A stretch of DNA of 38,926 bases from Bacteroidota bacterium (GTDB taxonomy: Bacteria > Bacteroidota > Bacteroidia > B-17B0 > Aurantibacillaceae): positions 1-38,926 of the forward strand of contig JACDED010000025.1 in NCBI GenBank assembly GCA_013816615.1, written 5' to 3'. The notes below the pieces were generated by a model. That model made no database searches and was not told the DNA's origin. It saw only the letters and a list, made by a program, of their open reading frames with translations. This document shows positions 12,219-36,479 of this stretch, piece after piece. Both the position numbers and the translations under genes were made by a program. Position 1 is the first letter of the stretch. Every line of letters starts with the position of its first letter.

Positions 12219-12228
12219 TTTTGAAATT

Positions 12229-12924: not shown

Positions 12925-13332
12925 TTAATCAATAATTACAATATCTTCTAAAACCTTTTTTTGTTTTTTTTCGGTGATAGTCACTTCCATTAAACTTTCT
13001 TTTGGAATTGATAAAGAAGGTTTGGTCTCATCTTTACCTATGGCATAAACTTTATATTTACCTTTTTGTAAATAATTAAATTTAAAAGAGCCATCATAAG
13101 AAGTTTTAACTGTATTACCTATCTCTTGTCCATCACCATAAATTATATAAACCGTTTCGCCTGGCAAATAGTATTCTGATGTTAAAACTGTAAATGTAGC
13201 GTCATAGTTCTTAACATATAATTTGCCTTCAATACTGGCAAAACCGCCTTCTCCCGCTGTTTTCTTGCATGAGCAAATAAATAGTACAGCCACAAAACAA
13301 AAAACGATCTTCAGATACTCTTTTTTAAACAT
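12925..13332 (-). CDS. Small lipoprotein of the AGEGG type (cassette B copy)
   Basis: From the ATG at 13332 the product is 135 residues. A longer frame starting at 13392 would put 20 residues before the signal peptide and is unlikely. The signal peptide ends in the lipobox FICSC, so the mature protein starts CKKTAGEGGFASIEGKL. The rest looks like one beta-sandwich (SYDGSFKFNYLQKGKYKVYA), similar to carboxypeptidase-regulatory or prealbumin-like folds. The copy at 19409-19822 shares CRKEAGEGG, the YIIYGD/YILYGD block, the NYLQKGKYKVYA/KYLRKGKYKIYV block and the ending ITEKKQKK/ITGKKQTK. The name is mine; I know no described family. It is predicted to be lipid-anchored and may be a partner of the CotH protein. 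Confidence 0.75.
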   Translation of the reverse strand: MFKKEYLKIVFCFVAVLFICSCKKTAGEGGFASIEGKLYVKNYDATFTVLTSEYYLPGETVYIIYGDGQEIGNTVKTSYDGSFKFNYLQKGKYKVYAIGKDETKPSLSIPKESLMEVTITEKKQKKVLEDIVIID

Positions 13333-13380
13333 AATACTTTTTAATTTTTTAAATTGAATTCTAATATTTCTATAATAAAA

Positions 13381-13431
13381 AACCGGTATCAAGGTTATGA
13401 GAAAATATCCTCCAAGGCTTTGATACCAGTT
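13381..13431 (-). terminator. Stem-loop between CotH and lipoprotein genes
   Basis: On the minus strand, arms AACTGGTATCAAAG and CCTTGATACCGGTT pair over 13 of 14 positions (one G-U counted) around a 23-nt loop. They are followed by a run of six T that begins in the stem. It lies between the CotH stop at 13456 and the lipoprotein start at 13332. This fits an intrinsic terminator or attenuator that lowers downstream expression relative to CotH. Confidence 0.6.
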
Positions 13432-13455: not shown

Positions 13456-16008
13456 TTATTTCTGAACTACCAGCTTAAATGTTTTGTTATAATTTTTTAC
13501 ACTTAATTGAATAAAATAAATGCCGTTACTTAACGTTGATGCAATTGTTTGATCAATATCAATTTTATAAGATCCAACAGCAAAGTCCGATTTATTTGGA
13601 ACCAGTTCTGCTACCTGCTTACCTTCAGTTGAGAACATTTTTATGTTTACTGGTGATGTTTCGTTCACATCAAATTCAATTGAAAAACCACCGTTTGTTG
13701 GATTTGGAAAAACCTTTGCATCAGTAGAAAAAGGATTCTCAAGTGTTTTAATACCTACATCCAATATATAATTAGCAACCAATGTATCGCTATGAGTTAA
13801 TTTTATCTTATTTACATTCGTTGTCTGTGCTATCAAATAAGGATTAACATTAGACGTCCATGTTACAAACTGGCTGGCTGAAGAGTAAGAAGTAGAACTT
13901 AAATTGACATCTATATTACCATAATAACTGGCTGCCCATGGCAATTGTGTTACCGTTAATGAATTTACAGTAACATTTGCAGCACCTGTTGGATTAACTG
14001 AGAACGTAACCGGGTAAGGCCCCGTTAAGTTATAACAACCATTCATTCCATTATTAGGATTAGTTCCACAACGTTTTGCAATAAAGGCACGCAATGTATC
14101 AAAATTTGTTTGCCATCCTGCATAAGTTCCACCCCATCTTTGCGTTTGACGTGTCATTTCAGGATCGATCACCGCTTTAGTACTATCTAAATAATCAAGC
14201 ATATGCTGGCAGCTAAAAGTGGTATTCATAAGATCGGCATAACGCGAAATATACCACTGATTAAAGCCCGGGTTATTTCTAAGCGTTTTCAAGATCTTGG
14301 TATGTTTTTGAGGGTCGGAAGAACTTTGGTTATACAGATTATCTACATTACAAACCGCTGCGGTATAAGAAGTACTCGGAACATTTGTATAATTGATATA
14401 AAAATCAAAAGACGCATCGTTATCCCATAAAATATAACCCCATTTTTTATGTCCGCCGGCAGGATTAAGTCCTCTCCACCAACCTGTATTATAATTTAAC
14501 CAATCGGATGAAACAGACATGGAATGCCCGATAACGTAATCTGCAAGACTTTCAACATCTAACTGAGAAGCAACATAATCAAAATTCGATTGCACAGCCA
14601 TACTATTATTAAAAATATATGTTTTTAATGTATTCCAGTCTGCAAGCGCCTGGCTACCGCCGTACTCCGCCCATGTACTTCCCCAGGTAAGAATATATTG
14701 CAGATCATATTTACCCTGGTTGTAATTGTATTCTGTATAATCATGATCATCCGGAATTTCGCGAAGATCATAAACACCCCAATATTTACCATTTAAATAC
14801 ACAACACATTTAGAACCTGTTCTAATGTCTAATTTCATACCGCCATCTTTACACAACGTTTGAAAATAAGCATCACGTAAATGCGCGCTTCCTGCATTTG
14901 CAGTATGAAAATCGGCAGGGTAATTATCATCACCTGCAGCACGTAAAATTAAATGTTGAAATTTATCACGCGTAGTTTGAGAAAATACATGTTCTTTTAA
15001 TGCAGCAGAATAACCCATTTCATCACGCGCAACAAAATCTAAACTCCTATGACTATTTGCCCATGAATCCTGGCCATGGCTGTTAAAGCCGCCATAAGAC
15101 TTGGATGTGCGTATACCGCCGGGAGTGAAATATTCTATTGAACCATTAGGCTTTAATGATTGTGAACCATTGGCAAGAGTTGTTAAGCTTGTACCCGAAA
15201 TTGAAATAATAGGAACCGTATGAACCTCGTTGATAAGATAAGTATTATAGTCTACAAAGCTTGACAACAAAAGAGGATTAGTACTGGTAGCAATAGCTTT
15301 TATAATTTGCGTTGTAGAAACACTTATCGCACCTGTATATAAAGTTGATAGTGTTGTAGGCTCAGTACCATCAATTGTATAATACATTGCATTTGAGGTT
15401 GGCTCATTGTTAACCAAAGCAACAGAAATTGCGCTTGTATAAAGGCCTGCTGTGTATGTCATAGATGGACGATCGGCAAAACCTGAATAAAGTGAACCTG
15501 CATTGTTTGCATTTGGAGTAGGGTTTGTAAAGATACCCCATGTTGCGGCACCATTAGTAGCACGACCTCTGGACTGGCCTAACTTTGTTTTAAGAACCCT
15601 CAAACTATCTATAACCACATTGCTTGGATTTGAAAGTATAATTGGTTCGGCATTATCTTTTGTTTGTGTTAACTTAAAGTTAGCATGTACGTTACCTGCT
15701 GTAATAGTTCCGCGTCCGCTGGCCCATATAATATAAACGCTATTGGCGTTAATAGTTGCTCCTGCAGGAATTGGAAATTTAGCAAGATTAAATACATCAT
15801 CACTTAAAAAATAGCCCGTTAAGTTAATAGGACTTCCTGTAGTGTTATACAACTCAATCCAATCTTCATATTTTTGGTTATTATCCTGGATGTTGCTTAA
15901 ATTAGCACAAGAATATTCGTTTATCAGAATTTGTGCTTTTATATTGGTAAACGAAAGCCCTATTAAAACAAAAAATAAAATTTTGCTGAAAGAGTATATT
16001 TTTTTCAT
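13456..16008 (-). CDS. T9SS-secreted CotH-kinase protein with N-terminal lamin-tail domain (cassette B)
   Basis: The 850 residues contain, in order, a signal peptide (1-25), a lamin-tail domain (about 26-150; INEYSCANLSN, YEDWIELYNTTGSPINLTGY), a chitobiase-C-terminal-like sandwich (about 180-240; YYTIDGTEPTTLSTLYTG), a CotH kinase-like domain (about 265-600) and a type A T9SS sorting domain (about 770-850). CotH motifs include VYLNGKYWGVYDLREIPDD (403-421), DVESLADYVIGHSMSVSSDW (484-503) and WGYILWDNDASFDFY (523-537), the last matching the WD.D metal/catalytic block. CotH proteins of spores phosphorylate coat proteins; here the target would be surface or envelope protein. It is the first gene of the second cassette and is separated from the lipoprotein by a stem-loop. 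Confidence 0.9.
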   Translation of the reverse strand: MKKIYSFSKILFFVLIGLSFTNIKAQILINEYSCANLSNIQDNNQKYEDWIELYNTTGSPINLTGYFLSDDVFNLAKFPIPAGATINANSVYIIWASGRGTITAGNVHANFKLTQTKDNAEPIILSNPSNVVIDSLRVLKTKLGQSRGRATNGAATWGIFTNPTPNANNAGSLYSGFADRPSMTYTAGLYTSAISVALVNNEPTSNAMYYTIDGTEPTTLSTLYTGAISVSTTQIIKAIATSTNPLLLSSFVDYNTYLINEVHTVPIISISGTSLTTLANGSQSLKPNGSIEYFTPGGIRTSKSYGGFNSHGQDSWANSHRSLDFVARDEMGYSAALKEHVFSQTTRDKFQHLILRAAGDDNYPADFHTANAGSAHLRDAYFQTLCKDGGMKLDIRTGSKCVVYLNGKYWGVYDLREIPDDHDYTEYNYNQGKYDLQYILTWGSTWAEYGGSQALADWNTLKTYIFNNSMAVQSNFDYVASQLDVESLADYVIGHSMSVSSDWLNYNTGWWRGLNPAGGHKKWGYILWDNDASFDFYINYTNVPSTSYTAAVCNVDNLYNQSSSDPQKHTKILKTLRNNPGFNQWYISRYADLMNTTFSCQHMLDYLDSTKAVIDPEMTRQTQRWGGTYAGWQTNFDTLRAFIAKRCGTNPNNGMNGCYNLTGPYPVTFSVNPTGAANVTVNSLTVTQLPWAASYYGNIDVNLSSTSYSSASQFVTWTSNVNPYLIAQTTNVNKIKLTHSDTLVANYILDVGIKTLENPFSTDAKVFPNPTNGGFSIEFDVNETSPVNIKMFSTEGKQVAELVPNKSDFAVGSYKIDIDQTIASTLSNGIYFIQLSVKNYNKTFKLVVQK

Positions 16009-16845: not shown

Positions 16846-17526
16846 TTAAAAACTGTGCGCATAAGTCAGGCCAAAAACAAAGTCTCTTTTTGGTTGATCT
16901 TTATAACGATAATGTTTCTGAAAAAGAAAATAACCTTCTAAATAACTTTTTGCAGTAAGATTATAGATAGCGCCTGCAAACGTTCTGCTACGACTAATAT
17001 TATCATACTTAGGCTGATCATACGAAAGATTTAATTCCTGGGAAATAAAGAATTCAACACGTTTACTTAATTCGTATTTAACTGTAAATTTGTTCTTGTC
17101 AAAATACAAAGGCACTCCGCCTTTTTCGCTTGAGTTTACGTTTTTAGTAGAAGCCTGTAAAAGATTACGGTATGCAAATAAAAACTGTTTTATTTTTTTT
17201 CTCAAAATAAAACCACCATATATTTGTTCTCTATCGCCAAACATACCGTTTAGCTCTCTTTTCTGTCCGTATGTATAGCCTCCAACAAATCTAAAATGCT
17301 TATTTAATTTATAGGTAAGTTCAACATTCGCATTAGCATTAGTATATTCTGAAATGTTATTATCAAACCTGTTTTGAAGAGATAGCTCAGCATTTAACTT
17401 TTTAGTAATATCCTTGTCAAGTTTTATGTACAGCCAAAGTTTTGCGTCATCATCATAATATTGCGCTTTTGCTGAAAAGGAATACAGCAAACAGGCTAAT
17501 AAGAAAAACAAAAAACGTTGCATCAT
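16846..17526 (-). CDS. DUF2490 family protein, last gene of the VTC operon
   Basis: The 226 residues have a signal peptide (1-21, ending FSAKAQ) followed by alternating beta-strands: AELSLQNRFDNNISEYTNAN, YKLNKHFRFVGGYTYGQKR, and a final YRYKDQPKRDFVFGLTYAHSF. The closing aromatic residue fits an outer-membrane barrel. The ATG at 17526 overlaps the TGA of the DUF4956 gene (ATGA), so the two are translationally coupled. It is a distant paralogue of the protein at 12229-12924. Inferred role: an outer-membrane component of the CotH/VTC surface system. Confidence 0.82.
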   Translation of the reverse strand: MMQRFLFFLLACLLYSFSAKAQYYDDDAKLWLYIKLDKDITKKLNAELSLQNRFDNNISEYTNANANVELTYKLNKHFRFVGGYTYGQKRELNGMFGDREQIYGGFILRKKIKQFLFAYRNLLQASTKNVNSSEKGGVPLYFDKNKFTVKYELSKRVEFFISQELNLSYDQPKYDNISRSRTFAGAIYNLTAKSYLEGYFLFQKHYRYKDQPKRDFVFGLTYAHSF

Positions 17527-18179
17527 TCTTTTATCTTTTCTTCGTAATAATAAATTTTTATCTGAGCCGCATCTTTAAGAAAATCGATCTTACCGATCGA
17601 GATCCTGTGTACATTAAGTCCTGTGCGTAATTTAATATCCGCTATCAATTCTGCATGACGTTCTTTCCTGATCAATTCTATATTTTCATAATTTATAAGT
17701 TGTACCGCTTCTTTTTTAAAGAACAGGTTGGTTTCGAAAATAAAGGCAACACCAATAATTACAAGATTAATCAGACCTAAGAATAAATATTCGTAACCAT
17801 CAGATGTATCTTTTATTTTAGTTACCGCCGCAATTAAACCAATAGCAATTACCAAAAACAGGTAACTCATATCTTTAATACTGATATCTTCGGTACGGTA
17901 ACGCAACATACTAAATACGGCAAAGAGGCCAAAAGCCGCGCCCATACTAAGCTCCACCTTATTTAATAAAAAGCAGATCAAAAAGATGACCACGTTAAAA
18001 ATAAAGAAGGTAAAGAAAAGGTCACTACGTTTATAAACACGGTAATACACCAAACGGATCAAAATAAATACCGAAACAATATCGATAAGAAATCTGAATG
18101 AGAATTTACTCAGTATTTTTATAAGCTCATCTGTGCTGTTCTCAGTTATGGCGTCTGTAGATATTTGTAAGAGTGTCAT
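17523..18179 (-). CDS. DUF4956 inner-membrane protein
   Basis: The 218 residues contain four to five membrane segments (about 29-46, 53-73, 80-92, 103-120 and 128-148). Diagnostic DUF4956 features are LSMGAAFGLFAVFSMLRYRT and the adjacent EDISIKDMSYLFL block between segments. A soluble alpha/beta tail follows (about 155-218; TGLNVHRISIGKIDFLKDAA). The family is uncharacterised but recurs next to VTC-domain polymerases. It is the obvious candidate for the membrane part of the polymerase complex, perhaps a conduit for polyphosphate (inference). The start at 18179 lies inside the end of the VTC gene (38-bp overlap), which implies coupled translation and fixed stoichiometry. Confidence 0.9.
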   Translation of the reverse strand: MTLLQISTDAITENSTDELIKILSKFSFRFLIDIVSVFILIRLVYYRVYKRSDLFFTFFIFNVVIFLICFLLNKVELSMGAAFGLFAVFSMLRYRTEDISIKDMSYLFLVIAIGLIAAVTKIKDTSDGYEYLFLGLINLVIIGVAFIFETNLFFKKEAVQLINYENIELIRKERHAELIADIKLRTGLNVHRISIGKIDFLKDAAQIKIYYYEEKIKE

Positions 18180-18924
18180 GTTTAATAATATGTTTTAATG
18201 CTAATAGTTTTTCTTTAAAATTATTTTTCTTCGCGTCAATATACGTAAAGGCAATTGCAAAACAATATTTGCTTATTGAACCTTCGCGTACATGCTGTTT
18301 TTTCATTTCTTTTATAAAAGGCGATGGTTTCTTTTTTTCCTGTTTTACCTCTGCAATAACAAGATTATCAAGGTTTACAATTTTATCTCCTTTTTTAAAT
18401 TCAAGATTTATATCAATAGTTAAACGTTCTGCACTTTGTTTGTTTACAAGTGTAATGCGGCTGTAATTAACCCACACAACAGGCACAAGTGTGCCTGGAT
18501 CGAAGGGCAATTCACCTGATAAAAACGCATGTGATTTTTCATTAAAAACAGTTGCAGGATCTTTTTCTTTAATTCTTTCTTTGATCGTTCTGCCTTTGTT
18601 ATTTTTAAATTTCACTTCCAGGTAACCCAGCTGCGAATCTACATAAGTACGGTGCCTTATCTTGTAACGGTTTAATTCGCCATTATGATGTTTATTATAA
18701 AGCATTAAGGTGCTTGTATCGTAATATAAAGTTTGATAACTACTCATCACCTTACTTTCAATATGTAAACATTTATAAAACGGTTCAATTGCTTTTAAAA
18801 CTTCGGGCAACAACTCCATTTTGAACGTATACTTGGTATCTGTTCTATCCATTAGTTTTACACCATCCATCTCTTTTAAAGTGGTTGGTATAAATGAATT
18901 TAATATGTCGTTAACTGAGTTCAA
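18142..18924 (-). CDS. VTC-domain polyphosphate polymerase
   Basis: The 260 residues form a single VTC (triphosphate-tunnel) domain, the catalytic fold of yeast Vtc4, which makes inorganic polyphosphate from ATP. Tunnel residues are present: RTDTKY (27-32), YYDT (67-70), RYKIRHRTY (86-94), YLEVKFKNNKGRTIKERI (101-118), ERLTIDINLEF (166-176), AEVK (191-194) and SKYCFA (218-223). There is no SPX domain and no membrane segment, so the DUF4956 protein encoded downstream probably anchors it. The start is TTG at 18924; an internal ATG at residue 19 is possible, but residues 1-18 look natural. The gene lies 3 bp after the YD-repeat-like gene and overlaps the next by 38 bp. Activity is inferred from conserved residues. 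Confidence 0.9.
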   Translation of the reverse strand: MNSVNDILNSFIPTTLKEMDGVKLMDRTDTKYTFKMELLPEVLKAIEPFYKCLHIESKVMSSYQTLYYDTSTLMLYNKHHNGELNRYKIRHRTYVDSQLGYLEVKFKNNKGRTIKERIKEKDPATVFNEKSHAFLSGELPFDPGTLVPVVWVNYSRITLVNKQSAERLTIDINLEFKKGDKIVNLDNLVIAEVKQEKKKPSPFIKEMKKQHVREGSISKYCFAIAFTYIDAKKNNFKEKLLALKHIIKHDTLTNIYRRHN

Positions 18925-18927
18925 AAA

Positions 18928-19404
18928 TTATTTATAACCGTATATGTATTTTTTTGAGGTCACTAAAACATTATTACCGTCGTAAGTTTTACGTTCGCTT
19001 TTTAAGCCTTTAGAATCGTAAGTGTAAACATTTTTCTTTAATTGCTTGCTGTTTCCATCAAGCACTAATTCTTCTGTTTTTTCTTTTAAAGAATTGTATT
19101 TAGATAAACGTTTTTCTTTTAAAACATTCTTCTCATCATACTCCATTTCTTCTATCACATCATCATCACTATTATATTTGTATTTAGTGGTAGATTTTAA
19201 AAGGCCTTCTTTATCATAATTCACTTCTTCAATTACAAGTCCGGCAGAATTATATATTGTTTTAGAATCGGTAATGGTTTTAGCGCCATGTGTTTCAACC
19301 GAAGTGATGGTTTTAATACCCAGTTTTTTTATGTCCTTCTTTTTTTGCGCGAAAGATCCGGTACTTAAAACTGCAAGTATGAGTGCTATAATTATTTTTT
19401 GCAT
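18928..19404 (-). CDS. Exported YD-repeat-like small protein
   Basis: The 158 residues have a signal peptide (1-19, ending GSFAQ), then about five degenerate repeats of roughly 20 residues such as KTIYNSAGLVIEEVNYDKEG and NVYTYDSKGLKSERKTYDGN. The Y.Y...G....E..YD..G pattern resembles YD/RHS or MORN-like hairpin repeats. It is highly charged and has no enzymatic motif. It sits between the lipoprotein gene (4 bp upstream) and the VTC polymerase gene (3 bp downstream) in the operon. The many Lys residues (well over a tenth of the protein) would suit binding a polyanion such as polyphosphate, which is speculation from composition. It has no counterpart in cassette B. Confidence 0.75.
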   Translation of the reverse strand: MQKIIIALILAVLSTGSFAQKKKDIKKLGIKTITSVETHGAKTITDSKTIYNSAGLVIEEVNYDKEGLLKSTTKYKYNSDDDVIEEMEYDEKNVLKEKRLSKYNSLKEKTEELVLDGNSKQLKKNVYTYDSKGLKSERKTYDGNNVLVTSKKYIYGYK

Positions 19405-19408
19405 GTTC

Positions 19409-19822
19409 TTAATTATAAATTGTTATTTGTTCTACTTCTTTTGTTTGTTTTTTACCAGTTATTTCAACTTCTTTTAGAACTGAAACATTTCCGGATTTTG
19501 ATTGCAGTGTATTATCTTTTGAATACACATAGATCTTATATTTTCCCTTACGTAAATACTTAAATTCAAATTCACCATTGTAATTTGTTTTTGTTTTTTC
19601 GCTATAGCTTACTGCATCGCCATATAAAATATAAACATCTTCATCATACCCGGCATACTCACCGTTTTTAATAGTGAAAGCGTTGTTCCAGTCTTCTACC
19701 CAAATTTTGCCTTTAATGGTTGATGTACCTCCTTCTCCGGCTTCTTTTCTACAGGAGATTAAATTTACAACAAACAGTAGTACAAATCCTAATTTTATTA
19801 AATTCTTAACGAGCATTCTCAT
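19409..19822 (-). CDS. Small lipoprotein of the AGEGG type (VTC operon copy)
   Basis: The 137-residue precursor has a signal peptide with lipobox VNLISC, so the mature protein begins CRKEAGEGGTSTIKGKI. A single small beta-domain follows (TNYNGEFEFKYLRKGKYKIY) and the protein ends ITGKKQTKEVEQITIYN. ATG is at 19822; a second ATG two codons later is equally possible. The gene starts 5 bp after the CotH stop, so it belongs to the operon. Its paralogue at 12925-13332 also directly follows a CotH gene, which argues for a shared job with the CotH kinase. No acidic lipoprotein-export signal follows the Cys, so it may face the periplasm rather than the surface. Confidence 0.78.
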   Translation of the reverse strand: MRMLVKNLIKLGFVLLFVVNLISCRKEAGEGGTSTIKGKIWVEDWNNAFTIKNGEYAGYDEDVYILYGDAVSYSEKTKTNYNGEFEFKYLRKGKYKIYVYSKDNTLQSKSGNVSVLKEVEITGKKQTKEVEQITIYN

Positions 19823-19827
19823 TTATT

Positions 19828-22089
19828 TTAGTTAGTTATTATTATCTTTTTAGTGGCGTTATTGCATTTCACAAGATACAAACCGTTTTGCCAGCCGGAT
19901 GTATTAATAATTATATTTTCAGAAAAATTATTACGATAAATCGTTTGCCCTAAAGCGTTTGTTATATCCAAAGTTTGTTTGTTTATAGTTTCTGTTCTAA
20001 TACAAAAAAACAAATTGGCAGGGTTTGGGTATATTAAAAAATCATTCATACCTGATCCATTTTCTGCGAGACCTACTGTACAGTTAGACATTCCATAAGA
20101 AGGATATGGTAATGATGTAAAATTACCGGTTCCATCCGGGCAACGGCCAATAGAGATATCGGATGTTTGATTACCAAAAGAAACACTGTCGAGTACTGAT
20201 CTTAAACCATTGCTTAAAATAATATTATCCCCATCTTCATTTAACTTAAAAGGCGCATGCATTTGATTTCCTGTTAAAGAAACATTATCTGCCCAAACTA
20301 TTAAATAACCGTTTGGTTGAATAACCGTATTATTTGGAAAAGAGAATTTTGCTTTGTCCTTATTCTCATCACTTAAATAATAATTACTAAGACTTAAAGG
20401 TGTGTTGGTATTGTTATACAGCTCTATCCAATCTTCTTCCAAATTAAATTCGTTTTTAACATCGCTTTTATTATTGGCTAAAAATTCATTTATCACCACC
20501 TGCCCCGGTAAAGGGTTTTGAAGGATCTTTAGTTCATGAAACTCATGCTCTGCCCTTTCCGGTGAAAAAATTCCGGCATTGGCATTTTCGGCATAAATAT
20601 AATATTGCAATTGGTTGCCCGTCATAACAATATTTGTACCGTAAACATTATCGCCCGCTGCGCCATCATTATGCGCACCATCATCGTACATTACAATTCG
20701 TGTAAATTTATCTGCTAACAAAAAGCGGTAGCCAAAATAAACCGTGTTTGCATTTGTAACGTTTGCGGTAAACGTTACGCTTGTATTTAAAGCTGGTGTG
20801 GCGTTGTTATTAACGCCGGCAATTGTTGGTGTAGTAACTGTAAAATCTGCTGTTGATTGTAAATAAGCGATCCTACCATTCATTAATGTTTGTATACCCG
20901 GCACAGAATAACTTCCTACCGAATAATTTGCAGTTAAGGCATTTTGAAATTGCGTGTAAGTAAAGAATTTTCTTGTATCACTTAAAACAGCTGTATCAAC
21001 GAGTGTTTTTAATTGATTATAATCTGTTACATAACTATTACTTACAAATATTTCGTTTAACATTGTGCGTGTATGTGCCACCAACATACGTTTGTATAAA
21101 GGGTTATTGTAAATTGCTTTTATCATTGGCCAATAAGCATCTGTTGAATGGGCGCTTATTGGAAGCACCTGCATTGAAGGAATGGTAAGACTTCCCAGGC
21201 TTGTATTTAAATTCCCTAAAAAAGGAAATCCGCCAAAACTCATATTAAGATCCCATACAATCGGATTGTAGTGTTTTGTACGGTCTTTATACAAATAATA
21301 ATTCTGGCAAAAAGCACCACTGTAGCTATCCAGATTTATTAAAACATTATTAAAAGCCAGCATCCAAATAGCACGGTCAACATCCATTACATTTGCTATT
21401 GTGTTTGGATGATTAGTAACCGAATCACTTAATGCTTCTAATTGTTTCCAACCATAATCGGATTTTATTTCGTAAAAATTAAAATAGGCGCTACTATCAC
21501 CTGCTAGTTGTTTTAAGTTACATTTTGTATTGGCCGATGGCGTTACATTAGGATTGCCTTTTATGAAAGTTCCATCCTGCGAGAAAAAATGGTTGCCACA
21601 AAATACTTTATTAATTGATTCGGTGTTTGAATAAACACCCATGTATGTATTATTGATATATACCTGAGCAAAATTGGCTTCAGGACAATGCATATAATTT
21701 TTCAAGATCTTATACGCTAACACTTCACGTATCATTGAAGGATCCTGGTAACAATTACTTAGTTTAATATCCGCGTAGCCTTGGTGATCCTGGTTCTTAT
21801 AAGCATCCAGCTCAATGTGAATTGGATTTTTTAAACGTGTAGAATCGTAAGAACTGTTTCCTTTGTATCTAACTCCTACGCTATCGTATTGCACGCCATT
21901 GATCTTTACCCATTGCGCCATTACATAACCTTCTTTACTTAATTTAGAAGTATCGAGCATGTAATCCCATTTAGGATCGTTAAAATGCACTTCTATTTTT
22001 TGAATAGCAGTAATGTTATAAAAAGATTGCCCATAACTTTTAAAATTTAAAAGTATGAGCAATCCTAATAATTTAAAGTACCTGAACAT
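19828..22089 (-). CDS. T9SS-secreted CotH-kinase protein with C-terminal lamin-tail domain (VTC operon)
   Basis: The 753 residues comprise a signal peptide (1-20), a CotH kinase domain (about 28-410), an Ig-like/spacer region (about 425-530), a lamin-tail domain (about 533-660; VINEFLANNKSD, LEEDWIELYNNTNTPLSLSN) and a type A T9SS sorting domain (about 680-753; FLIYPNPANLFF, WQNGLYLVKCNN). CotH motifs are VGVRYKGNSSYD (71-82), IKLSNCYQDPSMIREVLAYK (108-127), FAQVYINNTYMGVYSNTE (140-157) and NPIVWDLNMSFGG (275-287). The domain order differs from the other CotH protein, where the lamin-tail comes first. It is flanked by 4-5-bp gaps in the operon. Expected role: phosphorylation of surface proteins outside the cell; the phosphate donor there is an open question. 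Confidence 0.9.
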   Translation of the reverse strand: MFRYFKLLGLLILLNFKSYGQSFYNITAIQKIEVHFNDPKWDYMLDTSKLSKEGYVMAQWVKINGVQYDSVGVRYKGNSSYDSTRLKNPIHIELDAYKNQDHQGYADIKLSNCYQDPSMIREVLAYKILKNYMHCPEANFAQVYINNTYMGVYSNTESINKVFCGNHFFSQDGTFIKGNPNVTPSANTKCNLKQLAGDSSAYFNFYEIKSDYGWKQLEALSDSVTNHPNTIANVMDVDRAIWMLAFNNVLINLDSYSGAFCQNYYLYKDRTKHYNPIVWDLNMSFGGFPFLGNLNTSLGSLTIPSMQVLPISAHSTDAYWPMIKAIYNNPLYKRMLVAHTRTMLNEIFVSNSYVTDYNQLKTLVDTAVLSDTRKFFTYTQFQNALTANYSVGSYSVPGIQTLMNGRIAYLQSTADFTVTTPTIAGVNNNATPALNTSVTFTANVTNANTVYFGYRFLLADKFTRIVMYDDGAHNDGAAGDNVYGTNIVMTGNQLQYYIYAENANAGIFSPERAEHEFHELKILQNPLPGQVVINEFLANNKSDVKNEFNLEEDWIELYNNTNTPLSLSNYYLSDENKDKAKFSFPNNTVIQPNGYLIVWADNVSLTGNQMHAPFKLNEDGDNIILSNGLRSVLDSVSFGNQTSDISIGRCPDGTGNFTSLPYPSYGMSNCTVGLAENGSGMNDFLIYPNPANLFFCIRTETINKQTLDITNALGQTIYRNNFSENIIINTSGWQNGLYLVKCNNATKKIIITN

Positions 22090-22093
22090 TTTT

Positions 22094-23089
22094 TTATTCT
22101 ACTACTAATTTTTGTATTGCGCTTTGGTTGTTTTTACCAATAATGCGAACAAAATAAATACCTGAATTAAAATTCCCGATATTTAATTGCGTTGTTTCTG
22201 TTTCAATATCTTTAACAAGCATTACTTGTTTTCCTTTTGCATCAAATACTACAACGGTATAAGCACCATTTACTTTTGAGCTTAATGTAACAACATTACT
22301 GGCCGGGTTTGGGTGCATTTTTAAGTTTATTAAAGCACTTGAATTTTCTTTAACACCAACACCAGCCGCACAGTTAATACAGCTTGAAAAACAGATATCA
22401 GGCATTACAGTATCTTTTGTTACAATAATTGATCTGTTACCTGCATTAGCGCAAGTGTTAGGAACCGTTTCGGCATTGCCTGTTGTTTTGCCATTATAAA
22501 ATTTAAACTCATAAGTACCATTAGTCACATAATTGATTACTTCATAAACATCATCCGCAAAACTATACATATAAATGGTTGCAGGGTTAAAACTCTGATA
22601 ACTGGCACCAACATGTATACCATTAGCCGAAACCGGCATATTGGCGCTCATATCTACTTTAAACCTTATTAATGATTTACCCGCGGGCGCATTACCTCCA
22701 AACATAATAGCACCAACAAAAGTTGTATCATTTGCAAGTGAATCAACATATAACCAACGGTTATTATTAAATGCATCAACACTTGATTCGATAGGCACAA
22801 ATTCAGCCTCGTAAGTTTGATCTCCGTTTACAAATTGGTATTCATATTTCTGAAAAGCTGGAACATTTACAATAGCACTGTAAATAGTTGTTGAACCTTC
22901 TTGCGTTAATGAAATTGAACTCGGATCAAGATTTGCTGTATAACCGGCCGCAATTTGAAAATCGCCCATAACGTGAATGCCATTAGGACTAATTGTATTT
23001 GTACCCATATTTACGGCAAACTTTATTTTTTTCGCATAAACACCAGATGAGATGCAAAGAATGATAATTAAACTTAATACTTTTTTCAT
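22094..23089 (-). CDS. T9SS-secreted protein with two starch-binding-like beta-sandwich repeats
   Basis: The 331 residues have a signal peptide (1-19), then two related domains opening FAVNMGTNTISPNGIHVMGD (about 24) and FKVDMSANMPVSANGIHVGA (about 148). Each has a Y.F.(F/Y).NG strand near its end (YEYQFVNGDQTYEAE and YEFKFYNGKTTGNAE). This pattern resembles carbohydrate-binding CBM20/48-like sandwiches. A Cys-rich linker (CFSSCINCAAG) leads to a type A T9SS domain (about 255-331; MHPNPASNVVTL, FNSGIYFVRI). It lies 4 bp after the arylsulfotransferase-like gene and 4 bp before the CotH gene. A glycan-binding surface role is inferred from the fold guess only. Confidence 0.78.
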   Translation of the reverse strand: MKKVLSLIIILCISSGVYAKKIKFAVNMGTNTISPNGIHVMGDFQIAAGYTANLDPSSISLTQEGSTTIYSAIVNVPAFQKYEYQFVNGDQTYEAEFVPIESSVDAFNNNRWLYVDSLANDTTFVGAIMFGGNAPAGKSLIRFKVDMSANMPVSANGIHVGASYQSFNPATIYMYSFADDVYEVINYVTNGTYEFKFYNGKTTGNAETVPNTCANAGNRSIIVTKDTVMPDICFSSCINCAAGVGVKENSSALINLKMHPNPASNVVTLSSKVNGAYTVVVFDAKGKQVMLVKDIETETTQLNIGNFNSGIYFVRIIGKNNQSAIQKLVVE

Positions 23090-23093
23090 GTTA

Positions 23094-24785
23094 TTATTTT
23101 ATTAAAGTTATTTTTTTGTTTACAGAAGCTTTATTTGGCACAGCAATGTTTAAAATATATAATCCTGTGTTTAGATCAGACATGTCTATCTTTACTTCAT
23201 TCTTGCTTTTTAAAACCAGTTTTCCGGTGTTATCAAAAATAGAAACCGTAAAATCAGTTTCAGTATACCCGTTAAAATCCAATTCTATATTTCCTGTTGT
23301 TGGATTTGGAAAAATCATAAGAGAATTAAGCGTATTGTTCTGAGTCTTAACAGATGTTACCATTGTATAATCAAATCCTTTTGAATATACATTTACACAA
23401 CCATTAGCATCTGTTGTTCTTACAACATAAATACCATATTGTGAGGGAGTATAGGTTTGACTTGTTGCCCCTACAATCAGATCTCCATTAAAATACCATT
23501 GATAAGTTGTACCAGGTGTTGAGATAAGATCAGGATTTGTATAGCTGATAACCGGTTGCGAAGGTGCAGCGTTATTAATATAGCAAGTTGTATAACGGTG
23601 CGATTGTGGTGTTGTACCACCGGTACTTTTTGTCCAAACAACTGTACCTGCAGAATTAATTTCATAAATAGTTCCTGCAGTAGCCAGGCAGATCATTTGA
23701 TTACCGTTAGGGAATTGATCTGAGCTACCCATGTTACTTGTATAACCGCTTGATAAGTGACGGTTTAAATATGAAGCCGGAGTATAGGCGCTTCCTGCGT
23801 TAATGGTATAATTGTAATTAGTTCTTGGTGAAAGAATTTGATCAACACATGTTTTAGTGCTTGGTGATATTTGTCCTTTATTATTAATACCAACTAAATA
23901 CCCTGCGTTTGGAGATCCTTCAGGAATCCAGTGTGAATCGTGTGTTACATTTAAAATAGTTGAACCTGCTGCCTGGTAAGCAAAAGGATTACCCCAACGG
24001 TATAAAAAATCTCCGCCTTTGCCAGCGTTACCGCCACTATGGGTTGCTGCCTGTGCTGTTGTAGTGCTATGATCAATTATATACCATTCGTTAAGATTAT
24101 GTGAACTAACAACTATTTGGTCAAGAATTGGATTGTAATCAATACCATTCATATGCATCCAATCTTTTTGAGATGCATAATTGATATTTAATAATTGTGG
24201 ATTATTTACAATAGAAGTTTGGTAATTAGCCAAATTGCTATTTACGTTTTGAACAAGGTGATCCCAAACATTCCATTGCCATACAATATTAGCCGTATTA
24301 AGGCCGGTTGGCTGCAGTTCAAGGATCTTTTCAGCCCAAACAATAATATTATTGGTGCCACCGTTCGCTGTTACAGTTGCAGCACTTTTAACATCGTAAC
24401 TAATAATTAAAACATTACCATTTGGCAAAACGCAATGATCATGGTGCATACAATATGTTGTTGAAGAATATGTATAATCCCAAAGTAAAACACCTGCATA
24501 GCTCCATCTTTGGATCTTACCTGTCATACCACCACCAATTAAAGAAGTAGAAATAGAAACAGTTCTGTAAAGATCACCCCCAGGAGCAAGATGTGTTGAA
24601 TAACCAGTGCCGCCGCCTGTAAAATTCCAGGTTTTAACTACCGTATTATTAGTGTCTATCAGGTAGCCAATAGAACTTCCACTGTTGCTATACAACGTTA
24701 GCCCGTTCCATTTCTGGGCGTTTGTTTTAACTGCACAAAAAAGTGCAATTGTAATAATCATCGCTTTAATGGTAATTAATCTCAT
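23094..24785 (-). CDS. T9SS-secreted arylsulfotransferase-like (ASST) beta-propeller protein
   Basis: The 563 residues comprise a signal peptide (1-23, ending KTNAQ), an ASST-type propeller (about 25-400), an Ig-like segment (about 405-472; TYQWYFNGDLIVGATSQTY) and a type A T9SS sorting domain (about 485-563; MIFPNPTTGNIELDF). Family features include HHDHCVLPNGNVLIIS (114-129), KDWMHMNGIDYNPILDQIVV (207-226) and THDSHWIPEG (281-290), whose histidines match those lining the ASST active site. True ASSTs transfer sulfate between phenols through a sulfo-His; phosphate-related activity is not known to me. It is the first gene of the eight-gene operon. The upstream AT-rich 88 bp (24786-24873) should hold the promoter, but I see no exact consensus match. 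Confidence 0.85.
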   Translation of the reverse strand: MRLITIKAMIITIALFCAVKTNAQKWNGLTLYSNSGSSIGYLIDTNNTVVKTWNFTGGGTGYSTHLAPGGDLYRTVSISTSLIGGGMTGKIQRWSYAGVLLWDYTYSSTTYCMHHDHCVLPNGNVLIISYDVKSAATVTANGGTNNIIVWAEKILELQPTGLNTANIVWQWNVWDHLVQNVNSNLANYQTSIVNNPQLLNINYASQKDWMHMNGIDYNPILDQIVVSSHNLNEWYIIDHSTTTAQAATHSGGNAGKGGDFLYRWGNPFAYQAAGSTILNVTHDSHWIPEGSPNAGYLVGINNKGQISPSTKTCVDQILSPRTNYNYTINAGSAYTPASYLNRHLSSGYTSNMGSSDQFPNGNQMICLATAGTIYEINSAGTVVWTKSTGGTTPQSHRYTTCYINNAAPSQPVISYTNPDLISTPGTTYQWYFNGDLIVGATSQTYTPSQYGIYVVRTTDANGCVNVYSKGFDYTMVTSVKTQNNTLNSLMIFPNPTTGNIELDFNGYTETDFTVSIFDNTGKLVLKSKNEVKIDMSDLNTGLYILNIAVPNKASVNKKITLIK

Positions 24786-24873: not shown

Positions 24874-25040
24874 TTATTTATTGTTAAAAATTTCCATAAC
24901 GGCAGCCGCGTAACTTGGACCAACAGGAACATCAACATCTAAAATTTTTAGGGTTTTATTTTTTTTAAAGGAACAATATACGAACGATGAACCCTCATAA
25001 ATAAGTTAGACGGCAGATTCTCTAAAAAGAATTTCAAAAC
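24874..25040 (-). pseudogene. Decayed C-terminal remnant of a LytTR-type response regulator
   Basis: Directly after the deacetylase stop codon (25041) the same minus frame reads VLKFFLENLPS, then NLFMRVHRSYIVPLKKIKP, and stops at 24948. A different frame then gives KTLKILDVDVPVGPSYAAAV and MEIFNNK, stopping at 24874. Together these are the last third of a LytTR DNA-binding domain (FMRVHRSYIV and VPVGPSY are diagnostic), split by a one-base frameshift near an A-rich tract at 24952-24967. No start codon and no receiver domain remain; the upstream part has been replaced by the polysaccharide gene. I therefore call it a dead fragment at a recombination junction. Confidence 0.8.
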
Positions 25041-25847
25041 TTACTTCTCAAGTTCCTTAATAGCATCGCCATAATTTACGAACTCAATTTTATTGCTTTT
25101 TAAATATTCAACCAGCCACATATACCAGTTTAACCAGGTTTTAAACGAATGAGAAAAATAACGGTCATGAAAATCGATACCAAGATATTTTAAATTATGT
25201 TGATTGGCCTGGTCAATTATTTTAAGTGTTTTTTCTTTAGCCTTTTCTAAATTTAATGATTGCCATTTTTTTCCATCTTCAATTATCCATCCATCCATGA
25301 TCTGAAAGGGAAACTCCCACATATTACCAATTTTATAAGGATCTTTAAAAGAGTGTTCAGTGCTATCAAAACTGTATCCTGCTTTATTAAGCATATTAAA
25401 GGTTTGGGCAGAGTTTCTTACGTAATGCATTCTCACACCAAAATTTTTACGATCTGCTAAACCGCCAAACAATTCAAATTCCTTATTAATGAGATCCTGG
25501 TTCTCAAATTCAATTCCGTGTATATTGATCTCGCAATTTCTATGTTTCATTTGCTCTATCCAAAGGAATGCGGCACGGTTTGAATAATTAAGGCCAATGC
25601 CCCTGTTAACGGCAATAAAAAAAGAAGAAGGAACATTATTGATATTATTATAAGTAATTAACTCATCAATATTTTGCCACTTGTTCTTAAAAAAATCTGT
25701 CCAACGCAACATATATTCTCTAAGCGAGATCTTACCTGCCAACAATTCAATATGCATGCGTACCATAAACTTTGGTATGATAGCATCTTTAAACGTATGT
25801 TCTAAAACGCTGATATGATCAATATCGTGGGATATTATAGCTTTCAT
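25041..25847 (-). CDS. Polysaccharide-deacetylase-like (NodB-fold) protein
   Basis: The 268 residues fit a carbohydrate-esterase-4-like barrel. The N-terminal SHDIDH (H7, D8, D10) is the catalytic/metal Asp block, INIHG (H110) is the second metal motif, GVRMHYVR (138-144) supplies the conserved Arg, WEFPFQ (177-182) is the motif-4 region and GIDFHDRYF (223-231) carries the late His. There is no signal peptide, so it would act in the cytoplasm on a precursor or be a divergent member. Such genes often accompany capsule or O-antigen loci. It begins 6 bp after the upstream acyltransferase-like gene and is the last intact gene of the locus. The LytTR remnant abuts its stop codon. Confidence 0.78.
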   Translation of the reverse strand: MKAIISHDIDHISVLEHTFKDAIIPKFMVRMHIELLAGKISLREYMLRWTDFFKNKWQNIDELITYNNINNVPSSFFIAVNRGIGLNYSNRAAFLWIEQMKHRNCEINIHGIEFENQDLINKEFELFGGLADRKNFGVRMHYVRNSAQTFNMLNKAGYSFDSTEHSFKDPYKIGNMWEFPFQIMDGWIIEDGKKWQSLNLEKAKEKTLKIIDQANQHNLKYLGIDFHDRYFSHSFKTWLNWYMWLVEYLKSNKIEFVNYGDAIKELEK

Positions 25848-25853
25848 AACGTG

Positions 25854-26762
25854 TTAGCCTTTCTTTCCTTTTAAAACATTTATCACTTTAGGCAAACGAT
25901 TTACCTTTAAGAAATTATAATCCAACTGATCGCCGCCCAAACCACTGTAAAAACCAGCAAGTCCGGCATTTCCGCCTCCACCAAAATCAAAAACATTTGC
26001 TTTTTTTTCAAAATACTTAATGGCAAAATCAATTAATAAATGCATACTGCCATTGTTTTCTTTTTTATCAAAACTGGTTCCTTTTAAATACAAGACATGC
26101 GCCTTATTAAAAACAAAATGCCCAAGCGCCTTTATATTATTCCCGGCATCTACGGTTTTAAAAGTAATGATCTGCTCGTGCTTTATACAGCTTGCCAGCA
26201 ATGTATTAAAGATCCTTACAACCGAACTATCAAGCCCAATTTCTTTTGTAAGAAAAGGATCTATCCATTTTTTAGAAAGAGAACTGATTTCCTTTGGATC
26301 CACTTTTTCAACGGTGAAATTACTTTCTTTGGCTTTTTTTATATTGCGTTTTGTATTTTGATTATAGGTGTATCCTTTTTTATAATCAATAATAAATGTT
26401 CTCTTTTGATTTAGTCCCCTTACTTTTAAATTGTTTGAAGCATTTAACTCTATCTCAATTAATTTAAAATTTGTAGTAATGTAATTATAAAATGCGAGTT
26501 CGATCTCTTCGGTTATTTTGCCAAAAGCCCCTAACTGAGAGGTAAACGAAGGTTGTGGCAAATATTTAAAACCTAATTTTCTTTTTGCAGTTAAAGGAAA
26601 AACACTTTCGTAATTTCCAATTACGAGTGCATCCCAATTAGGAGAAGTTGCATTTAAATAAAAAGATTGCGCAAAAACCCAAGGGCAGGGAGAAGATAAA
26701 ATTGTTTTATCCCATTTTTTAAGATCAATATCCTTATGCTTTATGAGCTGCACTTTATCCAT
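25854..26762 (-). CDS. GNAT/FemAB-like acyl- or aminoacyltransferase
   Basis: The 302 residues resemble the double-GNAT FemAB fold: FPLTAKRKLGFKYLPQPSFT near 55-74, a basic YNQNTKRNIKKAKE block (132-145) where FemAB proteins bind the donor, HFVFNKAHVLYLKGTSFD (about 216-233) and FDFGGGGNAGLAGFYSGLGG near 258-277. Members transfer amino acids from tRNA to peptidoglycan stems or acyl groups to sugars. In a glycan locus it probably decorates an amino-sugar. It overlaps the previous gene by one base (TAATG-type junction). It is a clear relative of the neighbour at 26762-27724, although sequence identity looks modest. Confidence 0.72.
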   Translation of the reverse strand: MDKVQLIKHKDIDLKKWDKTILSSPCPWVFAQSFYLNATSPNWDALVIGNYESVFPLTAKRKLGFKYLPQPSFTSQLGAFGKITEEIELAFYNYITTNFKLIEIELNASNNLKVRGLNQKRTFIIDYKKGYTYNQNTKRNIKKAKESNFTVEKVDPKEISSLSKKWIDPFLTKEIGLDSSVVRIFNTLLASCIKHEQIITFKTVDAGNNIKALGHFVFNKAHVLYLKGTSFDKKENNGSMHLLIDFAIKYFEKKANVFDFGGGGNAGLAGFYSGLGGDQLDYNFLKVNRLPKVINVLKGKKG

Positions 26763-27724
26763 TAAAATATTTCGCGTTTCTTATACTTTAAAAGAATTTC
26801 TAATGGCAAAATAGCCTTGTTTACAGTATAATATGGGATAAGTTCAGGCCCAAAACCACGGAAGAATTTCTCAACACCTTTTAGCATTGAGCCTTCAAAA
26901 TCAAAAGTAGTACATCCTATTTCTTTTGCTTTTTCGATACTTTTCTGGATCAATAAATTATTTACACCTTGTATGCCTGAATTTTTATCCGTGCCTCCCA
27001 ATAAATAATAACAATTGTTTTTATCATACACACAAAAAACAGCGCCATAAAACTTATCATCCTTTTTTGCAATTAAGCCAAAAGAATTAGAAGCATCTGA
27101 GAATTGAAGGAATATATTTTTAAGCTCTTCTTCGTAAACGTTTGCCCCTGCTGATTTTAAAGAACCTTTAAAGAATTTATAAAGTTCTTCGCGACTGATC
27201 GAATCTTCAGTAACAACAATTTCTTCTTTAATTGCTTTATTAATTACATTCCTGTGTTTGGTATCAAAATTACTTTTGATATCTTCTATTGTTCTATTTA
27301 GATCTATGCGATATGTGTAATTAGGTATTACTTTATATTTATCCCAAATAAATGGTTGCAGATCTATTATATCAGATGGAAAAGCCAAAATGGTTAATGA
27401 ACTTTTTTGCGCGTTAAAATAAGTGCAAATATCATTCATTACTTCTTTAGAAAAATTATTGCCGGATGACCTGTTCTTGCTTTCAGAAACAAAAAACAAA
27501 CCGCAATGTGGTGTATAAGGCGGGAGTTTTATAAAATTAAAGCCGTACTTCCTGGTCTTTAAAAAATAAAAGCCGCCAATTAACTGGTGTTCATCTTTAA
27601 ATATACCTATCAACTCTAATTGTTGTCCGTAAACAGAAAGCCATTTTTTAGAACCAAAAACGCCAATGGCAGGTTCAGCCTTTTCTGTAAACAGGTCAAT
27701 ATCTTTAATTGGTTTTAAGATCAC
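26762..27724 (-). CDS. FemAB-like GNAT transferase
   Basis: The 320 residues show the peptidoglycan-bridge/BioF2-type GNAT pattern: YRIDLNRTIEDIKSNFDTKH and RNVINKAIKEEI (basic donor-binding helix), FYGAVFCVYDKNNCYYLLGG, TDKNSGIQGVNNLLIQKSIE and TFDFEGSMLKGVEKFFRGFG. The last block, with F.F.GS...GV..F...FG, is typical of the family. The start is GTG at 27724, 20 bp inside the end of the GT4 gene, so translation is coupled. Two adjacent FemAB-like genes plus a deacetylase suggest that an N-acetylated sugar is deacetylated and then re-acylated with something else (inference). Confidence 0.78.
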   Translation of the reverse strand: MILKPIKDIDLFTEKAEPAIGVFGSKKWLSVYGQQLELIGIFKDEHQLIGGFYFLKTRKYGFNFIKLPPYTPHCGLFFVSESKNRSSGNNFSKEVMNDICTYFNAQKSSLTILAFPSDIIDLQPFIWDKYKVIPNYTYRIDLNRTIEDIKSNFDTKHRNVINKAIKEEIVVTEDSISREELYKFFKGSLKSAGANVYEEELKNIFLQFSDASNSFGLIAKKDDKFYGAVFCVYDKNNCYYLLGGTDKNSGIQGVNNLLIQKSIEKAKEIGCTTFDFEGSMLKGVEKFFRGFGPELIPYYTVNKAILPLEILLKYKKREIF

Positions 27725-28826
27725 TTTTACTTTTTTCTTTAGTTAATATTTTTGAATATTCATCGATCATTTGTTGCAGATTATTTTGCCAGTTGTATTT
27801 TTCTATAACATGTATTCTTGCATTTACTGCAATTTGATCATATAAATTTTTATCTGTTATTAAACGTTCTATTCCATTTGCCGTAGCTTCTACATCACCA
27901 ATATTTACTTTCAGTCCAACGCTATCATCTTTTACAACTTCTTTTAATCCACCTACATTTGTTACAATAACCGGGATCTCACAAGCCATCGCCTCTACAA
28001 CTGAAACTCCAAAACTTTCGTACTCGCTTATGTTTACAAGCACATCCAACATATTGTAATAATTACTGATCTCTTTAAACGGGATACGGCCTGTAAATAT
28101 TACCTTCTCAAAAATACCCAATTCTTTGCAAAGTTCTTTTAAAGCTTTTTCCTCGGTTCCCTCGCCAATTATCAATAACTTTAAGTTAGCCTGTTTGGGT
28201 AAAACTTTTGCATAGGCTTTTACCAAAACATCAATGTTATAAAGGCTTTCGAGAGGTTTAATACTTCCTAAAACAAAATCATCGGCGCTAAATAACGATT
28301 CCACTTTCTTTGGTTTAAACTCATCAATATTTATCCCAAAAGGAATAACGTTAACAGGTTTATCTATCACCGCATGAATATATTCTTCAATTGTGAACGA
28401 GGTGGCACAAAGCAGATCAGCTTTCTTAAAATTAAATTTTAAAATTGATTTTGCCACAAAATTTTTGTTTGGAAACTTCATTACATCCGAACCCCAGCTT
28501 GAAATAACAAAAGGATGAAACCCTGTTAATGCACCCACAAAGCCATAACTGGTAGCATAATGTGCGTGCAAAATATCCGGTTCAAAATGTTTAATGATCT
28601 TTTTTAAAATGGCAACGTATTTTATATAAGCGAACTTTGTTAAAGTGCTTTCTGCATTTATTTTATTATCGGGCTCAAAAAAAACAGTTATGTTCTCGTG
28701 AACATACCAATCGTAAGATGCTTTGTTAAAACTGAATAAACCTACTTTAATTCCACTGTTTGCAAGGCCCAAAGCCCACTTTTCAGTATGCTCGCTATAC
28801 GTATCGGATAATAACAGGACTTTCAA
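27705..28826 (-). CDS. Glycosyltransferase family 4
   Basis: A retaining GT-B glycosyltransferase of 373 residues. The N-domain has DILHAHYATSYGFVGAL and SSWGSDVMKFPNK; the hinge has IPFGINIDEFKPKK; the C-domain has LLIIGEGTEEKAL and the E-x7-E donor block YESFGVSVVEAMACEIPVIV followed by TNVGGLKEVV. It should add a sugar from an NDP-sugar to a lipid-linked intermediate at the cytoplasmic face. The start is TTG at 28826 because a stop lies two codons upstream and no ATG fits. TTGA overlaps the TGA of the preceding GT2 gene. Donor and linkage cannot be read from sequence. Confidence 0.9.
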   Translation of the reverse strand: MKVLLLSDTYSEHTEKWALGLANSGIKVGLFSFNKASYDWYVHENITVFFEPDNKINAESTLTKFAYIKYVAILKKIIKHFEPDILHAHYATSYGFVGALTGFHPFVISSWGSDVMKFPNKNFVAKSILKFNFKKADLLCATSFTIEEYIHAVIDKPVNVIPFGINIDEFKPKKVESLFSADDFVLGSIKPLESLYNIDVLVKAYAKVLPKQANLKLLIIGEGTEEKALKELCKELGIFEKVIFTGRIPFKEISNYYNMLDVLVNISEYESFGVSVVEAMACEIPVIVTNVGGLKEVVKDDSVGLKVNIGDVEATANGIERLITDKNLYDQIAVNARIHVIEKYNWQNNLQQMIDEYSKILTKEKSKSDLKTN

Positions 28827-29674: not shown

Positions 29675-29754
29675 ACAGTTGTAACTAACAATAATTATGC
29701 TGAGTGTAGGGCTAATAGTTAGATTTTTAACAAAAATAATCTTAATTTTATAAT

Positions 29755-30897: not shown

Positions 30898-30900
30898 AAA

Positions 30901-31053: not shown

Positions 31054-31058
31054 AGTAC

Positions 31059-33895: not shown

Positions 33896-33898
33896 ACT

Positions 33899-34678: not shown

Positions 34679-34680
34679 TT

Positions 34681-35439: not shown

Positions 35440-35457
35440 TTATATATCTCTTTTAAT

Positions 35458-36462: not shown

Positions 36463-36479
36463 AAAATACAGAAGTGAAT

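Follow-up and report, generated by a model that had tools for sequence, protein, structure and literature searches.

A conserved operon linking a VTC polymerase and DUF4956 to secreted proteins in Bacteroidota, a possible trans-envelope polyphosphate module

We analyzed an eight-gene operon that combines a putative VTC polyphosphate polymerase, a DUF4956 inner-membrane protein and a DUF2490 protein with proteins carrying tails for the type IX secretion system (T9SS), on contig JACDED010000025.1 (assembly GCA_013816615.1) of a Bacteroidota bacterium of the family Aurantibacillaceae. The whole stretch of DNA analyzed, 38,926 nucleotides, is called the window below, and loci of relatives are given by our own L numbers. 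The operon is a real, conserved envelope module. We read it, tentatively and with somewhat less than even confidence, as a trans-envelope module for polyphosphate synthesis and export together with its surface clients, one that would probably act on surface glycans.

Listing of the open reading frames (ORFs) placed eight ORFs, all on the minus strand, from 24785 to 16846, at the same coordinates as in an earlier reading made from the letters of this DNA alone (the sequence-only reading). Along the operon they are separated by gaps of 4, 4, 5, 4 and 3 bp and then joined by overlaps of 38 bp (VTC/DUF4956) and 4 bp (DUF4956/DUF2490); the single run with gaps of 3-5 bp or overlaps described in that reading was borne out by the ORF listing and by Pfam and NCBIfam, where matches are above the curated cut-off unless called sub-threshold or weak. 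The first gene encodes an ASST-like secreted protein of 563 aa with a T9SS tail (23094..24785; PF05935 1.1e-11, PF14269 1.4e-6, Por_Secre_tail 8.1e-14), and is followed by a 331-aa sandwich protein with a T9SS tail (22094..23089; Por_Secre_tail 1.7e-13 above the cut-off, weak X25) and a 753-aa protein with a CotH kinase domain, an LTD and a T9SS tail (19828..22089; PF08757 3.6e-40). Two small proteins come next, an AGEGG lipoprotein of 137 aa that is Ig-like (19409..19822; lipobox assigned by eye, Ig-like Pfam matches sub-threshold) and a secreted YD/MORN-like protein of 158 aa (18928..19404; weak NCBIfam YD-repeat match, TIGR01643 0.0014; Pfam match sub-threshold). The last three genes encode the VTC polymerase, which has the triphosphate tunnel metalloenzyme (TTM) fold and is predicted to be cytosolic (260 aa, 18142..18924; PF09359 5.3e-26), the DUF4956 inner-membrane protein, MgtC-like with an ACT-like tail according to profile and model (17523..18179; PF16316 2.2e-49), and DUF2490, modeled as an outer-membrane beta-barrel (226 aa, 16846..17526; PF10677 2.8e-16). 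VTC and DUF4956 are present in one copy each in the window genome, which has five CotH matches and also encodes PPK1; the assembly is 97% complete. Por_Secre_tail was found on all three proteins to which the sequence-only reading had assigned T9SS tails (CotH, ASST-like and sandwich), and the genome carries the T9SS translocon gene SprA; with a signal peptide and a C-terminal domain of type A, these proteins qualify as T9SS cargo.

Every genome with VTC also had DUF4956. Among 87 genomes of the same family, 68 had DUF4956 and 57 had VTC, and DUF4956 was present in all 57; in a sample of 395 genomes from the phylum, 88 carried DUF4956, 85 of them with a match above the cut-off, and each of the 57 with VTC carried DUF4956 too. 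VTC lay no more than 1.2 kb from DUF4956 at 65 of 69 places in the family and at 62 of 66 in the phylum sample, while three of the remaining places were 2.7-2.9 kb away and five had no DUF4956 on their contig. Of 14 control genomes, 3 had matches, and these were the same three for both families. The neighborhood survey thus found conserved the linkage whose absence from relatives had been set beforehand as grounds for refutation. Gene order and conservation, like the catalytic residues and compartment signals described below, are established from sequence. In one relative (L075:8326-9758) VTC and DUF4956 are each split into two ORFs, which may reflect a decaying copy or errors in the assembly. 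Two loci, L210 and L211, have DUF4956 without VTC, in both cases in one run with a gene that in L210 is purple-acid-phosphatase-like.

A profile of 12 VTC sequences matched yeast Vtc4 at 1.4e-13, and all six solved chains that it found were Vtc4 or Vtc2; phmmer with the single window VTC sequence gave no Vtc4 match. Residues R27, K31, R90, R92, E103 and K105 of the window VTC align with Vtc4 R196, K200, R264, R266, E279 and K281, and R156, R167, E192, K194 and K219 align with R361, R373, E426, K428 and K458. R264 and R266 of Vtc4 are termed essential (PMC8749416), and R264A/R266A/E426N is a catalytically impaired Vtc4 (PMC9911596; these and the other papers are cited here from excerpts). Each of the eleven charged residues is kept in 81-89 of 89 VTCs, so that the tunnel residues picked out earlier as a check on ATP binding are retained. 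A simple hydrophobicity rule found no export signal in 91 of 98 VTCs, which agrees, as do the complete catalytic residues, with the intracellular enzyme of the sequence-only reading. A Pfam scan showed the VTC domain alone and no SPX domain, and the protein is therefore a VTC-domain polymerase rather than a eukaryotic-type VTC subunit; PHROGs held no match for VTC or DUF4956. VTC likely synthesizes polyphosphate from ATP.

We compared DUF4956 with MgtC/SapB in hhalign and obtained 94.1%, with a score of 55.8 over 193 columns that spanned the membrane domain and the tail, using a wider DUF4956 alignment and an MgtC side cleared of faulty rows; a shallow query against an MgtC side with 4 of 20 rows faulty (one wrong ORF, three truncated) gave 1.9%. 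The best of 30 column shuffles scored 24.9 and the reversed control 16.8. A Pfam scan of the protein returned DUF4956 alone and no MgtC match, and by profile comparison DUF4956 is a distant MgtC relative that is not filed as MgtC. The predicted structure has five helices and a beta-alpha-beta-beta tail (pLDDT 78, pTM 0.62), and for the tail Foldseek gave ACT-like matches that were weak (E near 1). Model and profile both agree with the membrane protein proposed from sequence. The top VIA-align row, a helical protein, was rejected because it fell among the values for which the tool itself advises caution.

DUF2490 is very probably an outer-membrane beta-barrel. The model, of a protein with a signal peptide, is a barrel with a pLDDT of 93.1 and 11 assigned strands, and Foldseek matches to it included NanC (TM 0.49/0.53), the polysaccharide secretin 4y25 (0.50/0.41) and Omp32. 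Barrel and porin-type matches fit the part in the envelope that had been suggested for it. Its polar face, assigned by hydropathy alternation, is basic (24.2% K+R, 15.6% D+E), and over 53 sequences the mature proteins have a median charge of +12. A sister clade has a HlyD/EmrA-like adaptor gene upstream of VTC and in the same run, seen in 13 of the 40 phylum runs. Single adaptor sequences stayed under the Pfam cut-offs, and 13 of 14 PDB matches of the adaptor profile were periplasmic adaptors (EmrA, AcrA, MacA and the like; best 4.6e-5). Adaptor loci are L213 (in two ORFs), L214, L216, L217, L219, L221-L226 and L228-L230. DUF2490 and the adaptor never shared a VTC-DUF4956 run in the phylum sample, an exclusion that is confounded by descent, since the distribution of the adaptor tracks a single part of the VTC tree (2 changes).

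The secreted partners carry the corresponding compartment signals. In the window, L038-L110 and L185-L230 (where L190 repeats L085 and L186 repeats L058), the same hydrophobicity rule found an export signal on 31 of 31 CotH proteins in DUF4956 runs; 26 of these 31 had a T9SS tail and most of the others were lipobox-like. ASST and sandwich proteins had both signal and T9SS tail in 13 of 13 cases each. By these signals, the inner membrane would separate the polymerase from the kinase. This separation, together with the genes between or beside them for an inner-membrane protein and, in many loci, for a barrel or an adaptor, is the core of our argument that a polymer may be exported.

CotH belongs to the CotH kinase family and is a putative kinase, matching PDB 5jd9 at 2.9e-5. 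Of 80 sequences, 79 retain its residues D254 and D280, which in our reading of the family alignment are probably the equivalents of D228 and D251 of Bacillus subtilis CotH, the loss of which kills the kinase (PMC7821199); a pairwise HMMER alignment to 5jd9, at a place next to gaps, pairs the likely D228 equivalent with a Ser and not with D254. In the ASST-like protein, H114, H115, H176, H211, H239 and H282 were invariant in 11 homologues. A weak alignment (E 0.17) to Escherichia coli AssT, whose active-site residues we take to be H356, N358 and R374, places H356/N358 opposite H211/N213 and R374 opposite H229. One 974-aa protein at L201:12600-15524 unites ASST-like, PKD, BACON and sandwich/CBM_20-like parts and also carries a T9SS tail. 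The part homologous to the sandwich protein stands behind ASST in this protein, where a CBM_20 match falls just under the cut-off, and the sandwich protein is perhaps glycan-binding. At L222:5009-7834, a T9SS-tailed GH3-CBM6 glycosidase lies between CotH and the adaptor-VTC-DUF4956 genes.

We surveyed the neighborhoods of DUF4956 by runs, defined as same-strand genes less than 150 bp apart. The own-family set comprised 73 loci (72 fetched plus the window; L107 was dropped for a DUF4956 match below the cut-off), and the phylum set 40 loci; these came from 38 of the 87 further positive genomes, for the most part those with the highest scores. L111-L190, many of which duplicate the same genomes, were excluded from the run counts, and the short contig-end fragments of genomes G033 and G039 were left out. 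Gene calling followed a greedy rule favoring the longest ORF, which misses some genes (VTC in L230, known from the VTC genome search) and invents others in GC-rich loci (L220). VTC was the commonest partner in own-family runs (61), followed by the YD protein (54), DUF2490 and T9SS tails (35 each) and the lipoprotein (30); CotH (18), sandwich (10) and ASST (9) were rarer. Phylum runs held VTC (34), DUF2490 and the adaptor (13 each), CotH and T9SS tails (9 each), ASST (5, weak in L199), the lipoprotein (3), sandwich (2) and no YD protein. Compared with other genes of the same loci, runs were enriched for T9SS tails (65/301 versus 62/666 in the family, 15/98 versus 20/439 in the phylum) and for CotH (21/301 versus 13/666 and 9/98 versus 5/439), and ASST and sandwich genes were enriched as well, with Fisher values that treat genes as independent and are uncorrected. 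A chance neighborhood was rejected on the constant company of VTC and DUF4956 and on this enrichment.

All eight families occurred in one run at eight own-family loci besides the window (L044, L078, L080, L081, L085, L087, L093 and L101), with ASST cut by the contig or fetch end in L044 and L101. ASST, sandwich and CotH stood together with VTC, DUF4956 and DUF2490 in nine own-family loci, the window included, and in L201 and L209 from two other families. A T9SS-tailed CotH was no more than two genes from the core at nine phylum loci from eight other families (L201, L202, L209, L216, L222, L224, L225, L226 and L230), and shared the run of the core at four of these (L201, L209, L216 and L224). 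Minimal runs consisted of the YD protein, VTC and DUF4956 (e.g. L040, L049, L052 and L058) or of VTC and DUF4956 alone (L089 and L092). Mapped onto a quickly built VTC tree with 89 rows, the 25 presences of CotH required 17 changes and the 13 of ASST required 10, which indicates that the secreted partners come and go, in a count blind to gain versus loss. In L185 and L188 (Emticicia, with L185 from E. aquatilis), a CotH with a lipoprotein-like start and no T9SS tail accompanies the YD protein, VTC, DUF4956 and DUF2490.

From these data we infer enzymatic activity, docking, transport, the use of polyphosphate by CotH and a final substrate, as follows. VTC would use ATP to polymerize polyphosphate on the cytosolic face of the inner membrane, and DUF4956 would dock VTC and pass or gate the polymer. 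The basic DUF2490 barrel may be the exit through the outer membrane, with the HlyD-like adaptor in its place in the sister clade. At the surface, CotH, the ASST-like protein, the perhaps glycan-binding sandwich protein and the two small lipo- or secreted proteins would bind or consume the polymer, in a step that may phosphorylate or cross-link glycans or proteins made by the neighboring glycan genes. Export across the envelope is plausible; use by CotH at the surface is a bold proposal. The most specific form of it, which we consider unlikely, is an ATP-independent extracellular phosphorylation in which cytosolic polyphosphate, threaded through VTC-DUF4956-DUF2490 or the HlyD-like adaptor, would be the phosphoryl donor for T9SS-secreted CotH and for an ASST-like transferase that would have switched from sulfate to phosphate, the two modifying surface glycans and proteins.

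Several points weigh against an export module. We know of no transport or enzymatic assay for the system, and to our knowledge MgtC proteins have not been described as channels. Foldseek and VIA-align gave no trustworthy PDB fold match for the membrane part of DUF4956, and the best-E Foldseek matches of DUF2490 were VDAC/TOM40 barrels at TM <0.25, so that the barrel match is generic. CotH was present in only 18 of the 73 own-family and 9 of the 40 phylum runs. DUF4956 can occur without the polymerase, as it does in 11 own-family genomes, some of them with the gene at contig ends, and in 31 phylum genomes, three of them sub-cut-off. TTM tunnel residues are common to the TTM superfamily, including hydrolases, and are by themselves no proof of synthesis; with PPK1 in the genome, polyphosphate supply alone needs no VTC. 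Finally, no defect is described in the excerpt for deletion of the polymerase in Streptococcus intermedius (PMC12345266).

The surroundings of the operon include a second cassette, a glycan region and a regulator remnant, all of which the sequence-only reading had missed. Directly downstream on the same strand (16008-10569) are a second CotH of 850 aa with LTD, CHB_HEX_C_1, CotH and a T9SS tail (13456..16008, minus strand; PF08757 6.7e-29), a second AGEGG lipoprotein (12925..13392, minus; 173.6 bits with an own-family HMM), a second DUF2490 (12229..12924, minus; PF10677 2.9e-28) and a 568-aa repeat protein with a T9SS tail (10569..12275, minus), whose family, c5, shares a run with VTC-DUF4956 in several relatives. 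In the relative L084, a cassette of the same order adjoins the YD protein, VTC and DUF4956 directly. Between the operon and the glycan genes lies what is left of a LytTR response regulator, a C-terminal piece with a broken reading frame (24876..25040, minus), which tblastn matched in two frames to the L087 regulator (47% over 55 residues and 72% over 29 residues). In L078, L080, L081, L085 and L087, ASST is preceded by two genes, which belong to a LytS-type kinase family (identity checked in L085) and to a LytTR regulator family (checked in L080). The close relative L111, from the same region as L087 and with a DUF4956 95% identical, has a 230-aa regulator at the gap site, itself preceded by a 311-aa gene. 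In the window genome, a regulator of the operon has apparently been lost.

Directly upstream, at about 25041-37307, is a glycosyltransferase-rich region. Its genes at 25041..28826 (minus strand) encode a 268-aa deacetylase-like protein, a 302-aa FemAB-like protein, a FemAB/GNAT-like protein and a glycosyltransferase; the first two labels were given by eye, the Pfam scan having matched neither. The same glycan families are in one run with VTC-DUF4956 in L046, L050, L065, L098 and L105, and in a run with DUF4956 and no VTC in L073, L074, L076 and L077. In these four, DUF4956 and the YD protein are retained by the glycan genes, and a search of the genomes for VTC found none.

The glycan genes bear on a different and possible explanation, which we hold with less confidence than export, that the operon belongs to glycan assembly: VTC-DUF4956 would tune or modify an exported polysaccharide, a role that the accessory genes of Gram-positive Pel loci may also have, DUF4956 being a regulator and not a channel, and CotH would phosphorylate the glycan or export proteins with a donor other than polyphosphate. 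CotH, a poly-phosphate polymerase and DUF4956 are found beside Gram-positive Pel operons (PMC7112168), which also puts in print the trio that the sequence-only reading had called a recurrent neighborhood. The sole genetic result in print that we found, from S. intermedius, is mixed: a heading reports Pel production without need for SIR_1591-1594, and Pel was present in all four accessory mutants, while the DUF4956 mutant had more Pel and the CotH mutant less, and both lost more than half of their aggregation in artificial sputum medium (PMC12345266). The CBM/BACON domains of L201 and the glycosidase of L222 point the same way as the glycan genes. Set against this, PelG was not found in the window genome and general scans of window proteins named no Pel gene, some runs hold no more than the YD protein, VTC and DUF4956 or the latter two, and the adaptor and basic barrel argue for anionic export.

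An export module also has to be weighed against an intracellular store, in which VTC-DUF4956 would make and regulate cytosolic polyphosphate under phosphate or magnesium stress, its secreted neighbors being loosely linked. The discussion in PMC12345266 mentions that MgtC of Salmonella inhibits ATP synthase and changes phosphate metabolism, and the patchiness of CotH and ASST on the VTC tree would suit such a role. We consider it quite improbable, as the secreted partners are enriched and ordered across families, PPK1 is already present, and a barrel or adaptor shares the run in many loci. That VTC is a tripolyphosphatase or nucleotide-processing TTM enzyme, as the shared tunnel residues would allow, is very unlikely given that the VTC profile recovered Vtc4 and Vtc2 alone among solved chains and that a membrane partner which is always present recalls the arrangement of the eukaryotic VTC complex.

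We also compared the operon with known systems. Pel accessory genes of streptococci, clostridia and bifidobacteria (PMC7112168; SIR_1592-1594 in PMC12345266) have the same three families adjacent with a secreted CotH, and the membrane gene of S. intermedius is reported to combine an MgtC membrane domain with an ACT domain (PMC12345266). Unlike these loci, the window genome adds an outer-membrane barrel, lipoproteins and T9SS cargo, and the window and relatives such as L101 and L209 hold the trio without a Pel context being shown. The analyses excerpted from PMC12345266 found no syntenic trio outside the Pel locus; the window disagrees with such a confinement. Like the eukaryotic VTC complex (Vtc1/2/3/4), the operon has a cytosolic TTM polymerase with a membrane partner and keeps the catalytic residues, but it lacks SPX, its partner is the MgtC-like DUF4956 and not Vtc1-type helices, and an envelope rather than a vacuole membrane would have to be crossed. 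NELoc-2 of Clostridium perfringens groups two VTC genes, small membrane genes and CotH, but is Gram-positive, has membrane genes annotated as tubulin/FtsZ, and in the excerpt shows no T9SS or outer-membrane parts (PMC2879425). In Bacteroides thetaiotaomicron, DUF4956 adjoins DUF2490 (BT3498-BT3499), as known from one transcript-table entry (PMC10434189). What is already known is thus the trio in Gram-positive Pel loci; a version linked to T9SS, DUF2490 or the adaptor was not recognized in listings of the literature searched, which omits most subscription journals, and within that scope the sequence-only reading, which knew of no described T9SS-linked version, is borne out.

If export is correct, the operon would be a dedicated bacterial polyphosphate exporter and would explain how secreted kinases obtain phosphate outside the cell, where there is no ATP. 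On a more modest reading, it is still a conserved pairing of VTC with DUF4956 that comes with one of two envelope solutions, either a barrel or an adaptor. Either way, DUF4956, DUF2490 and the surface CotH proteins become testable in cultured bacteria.

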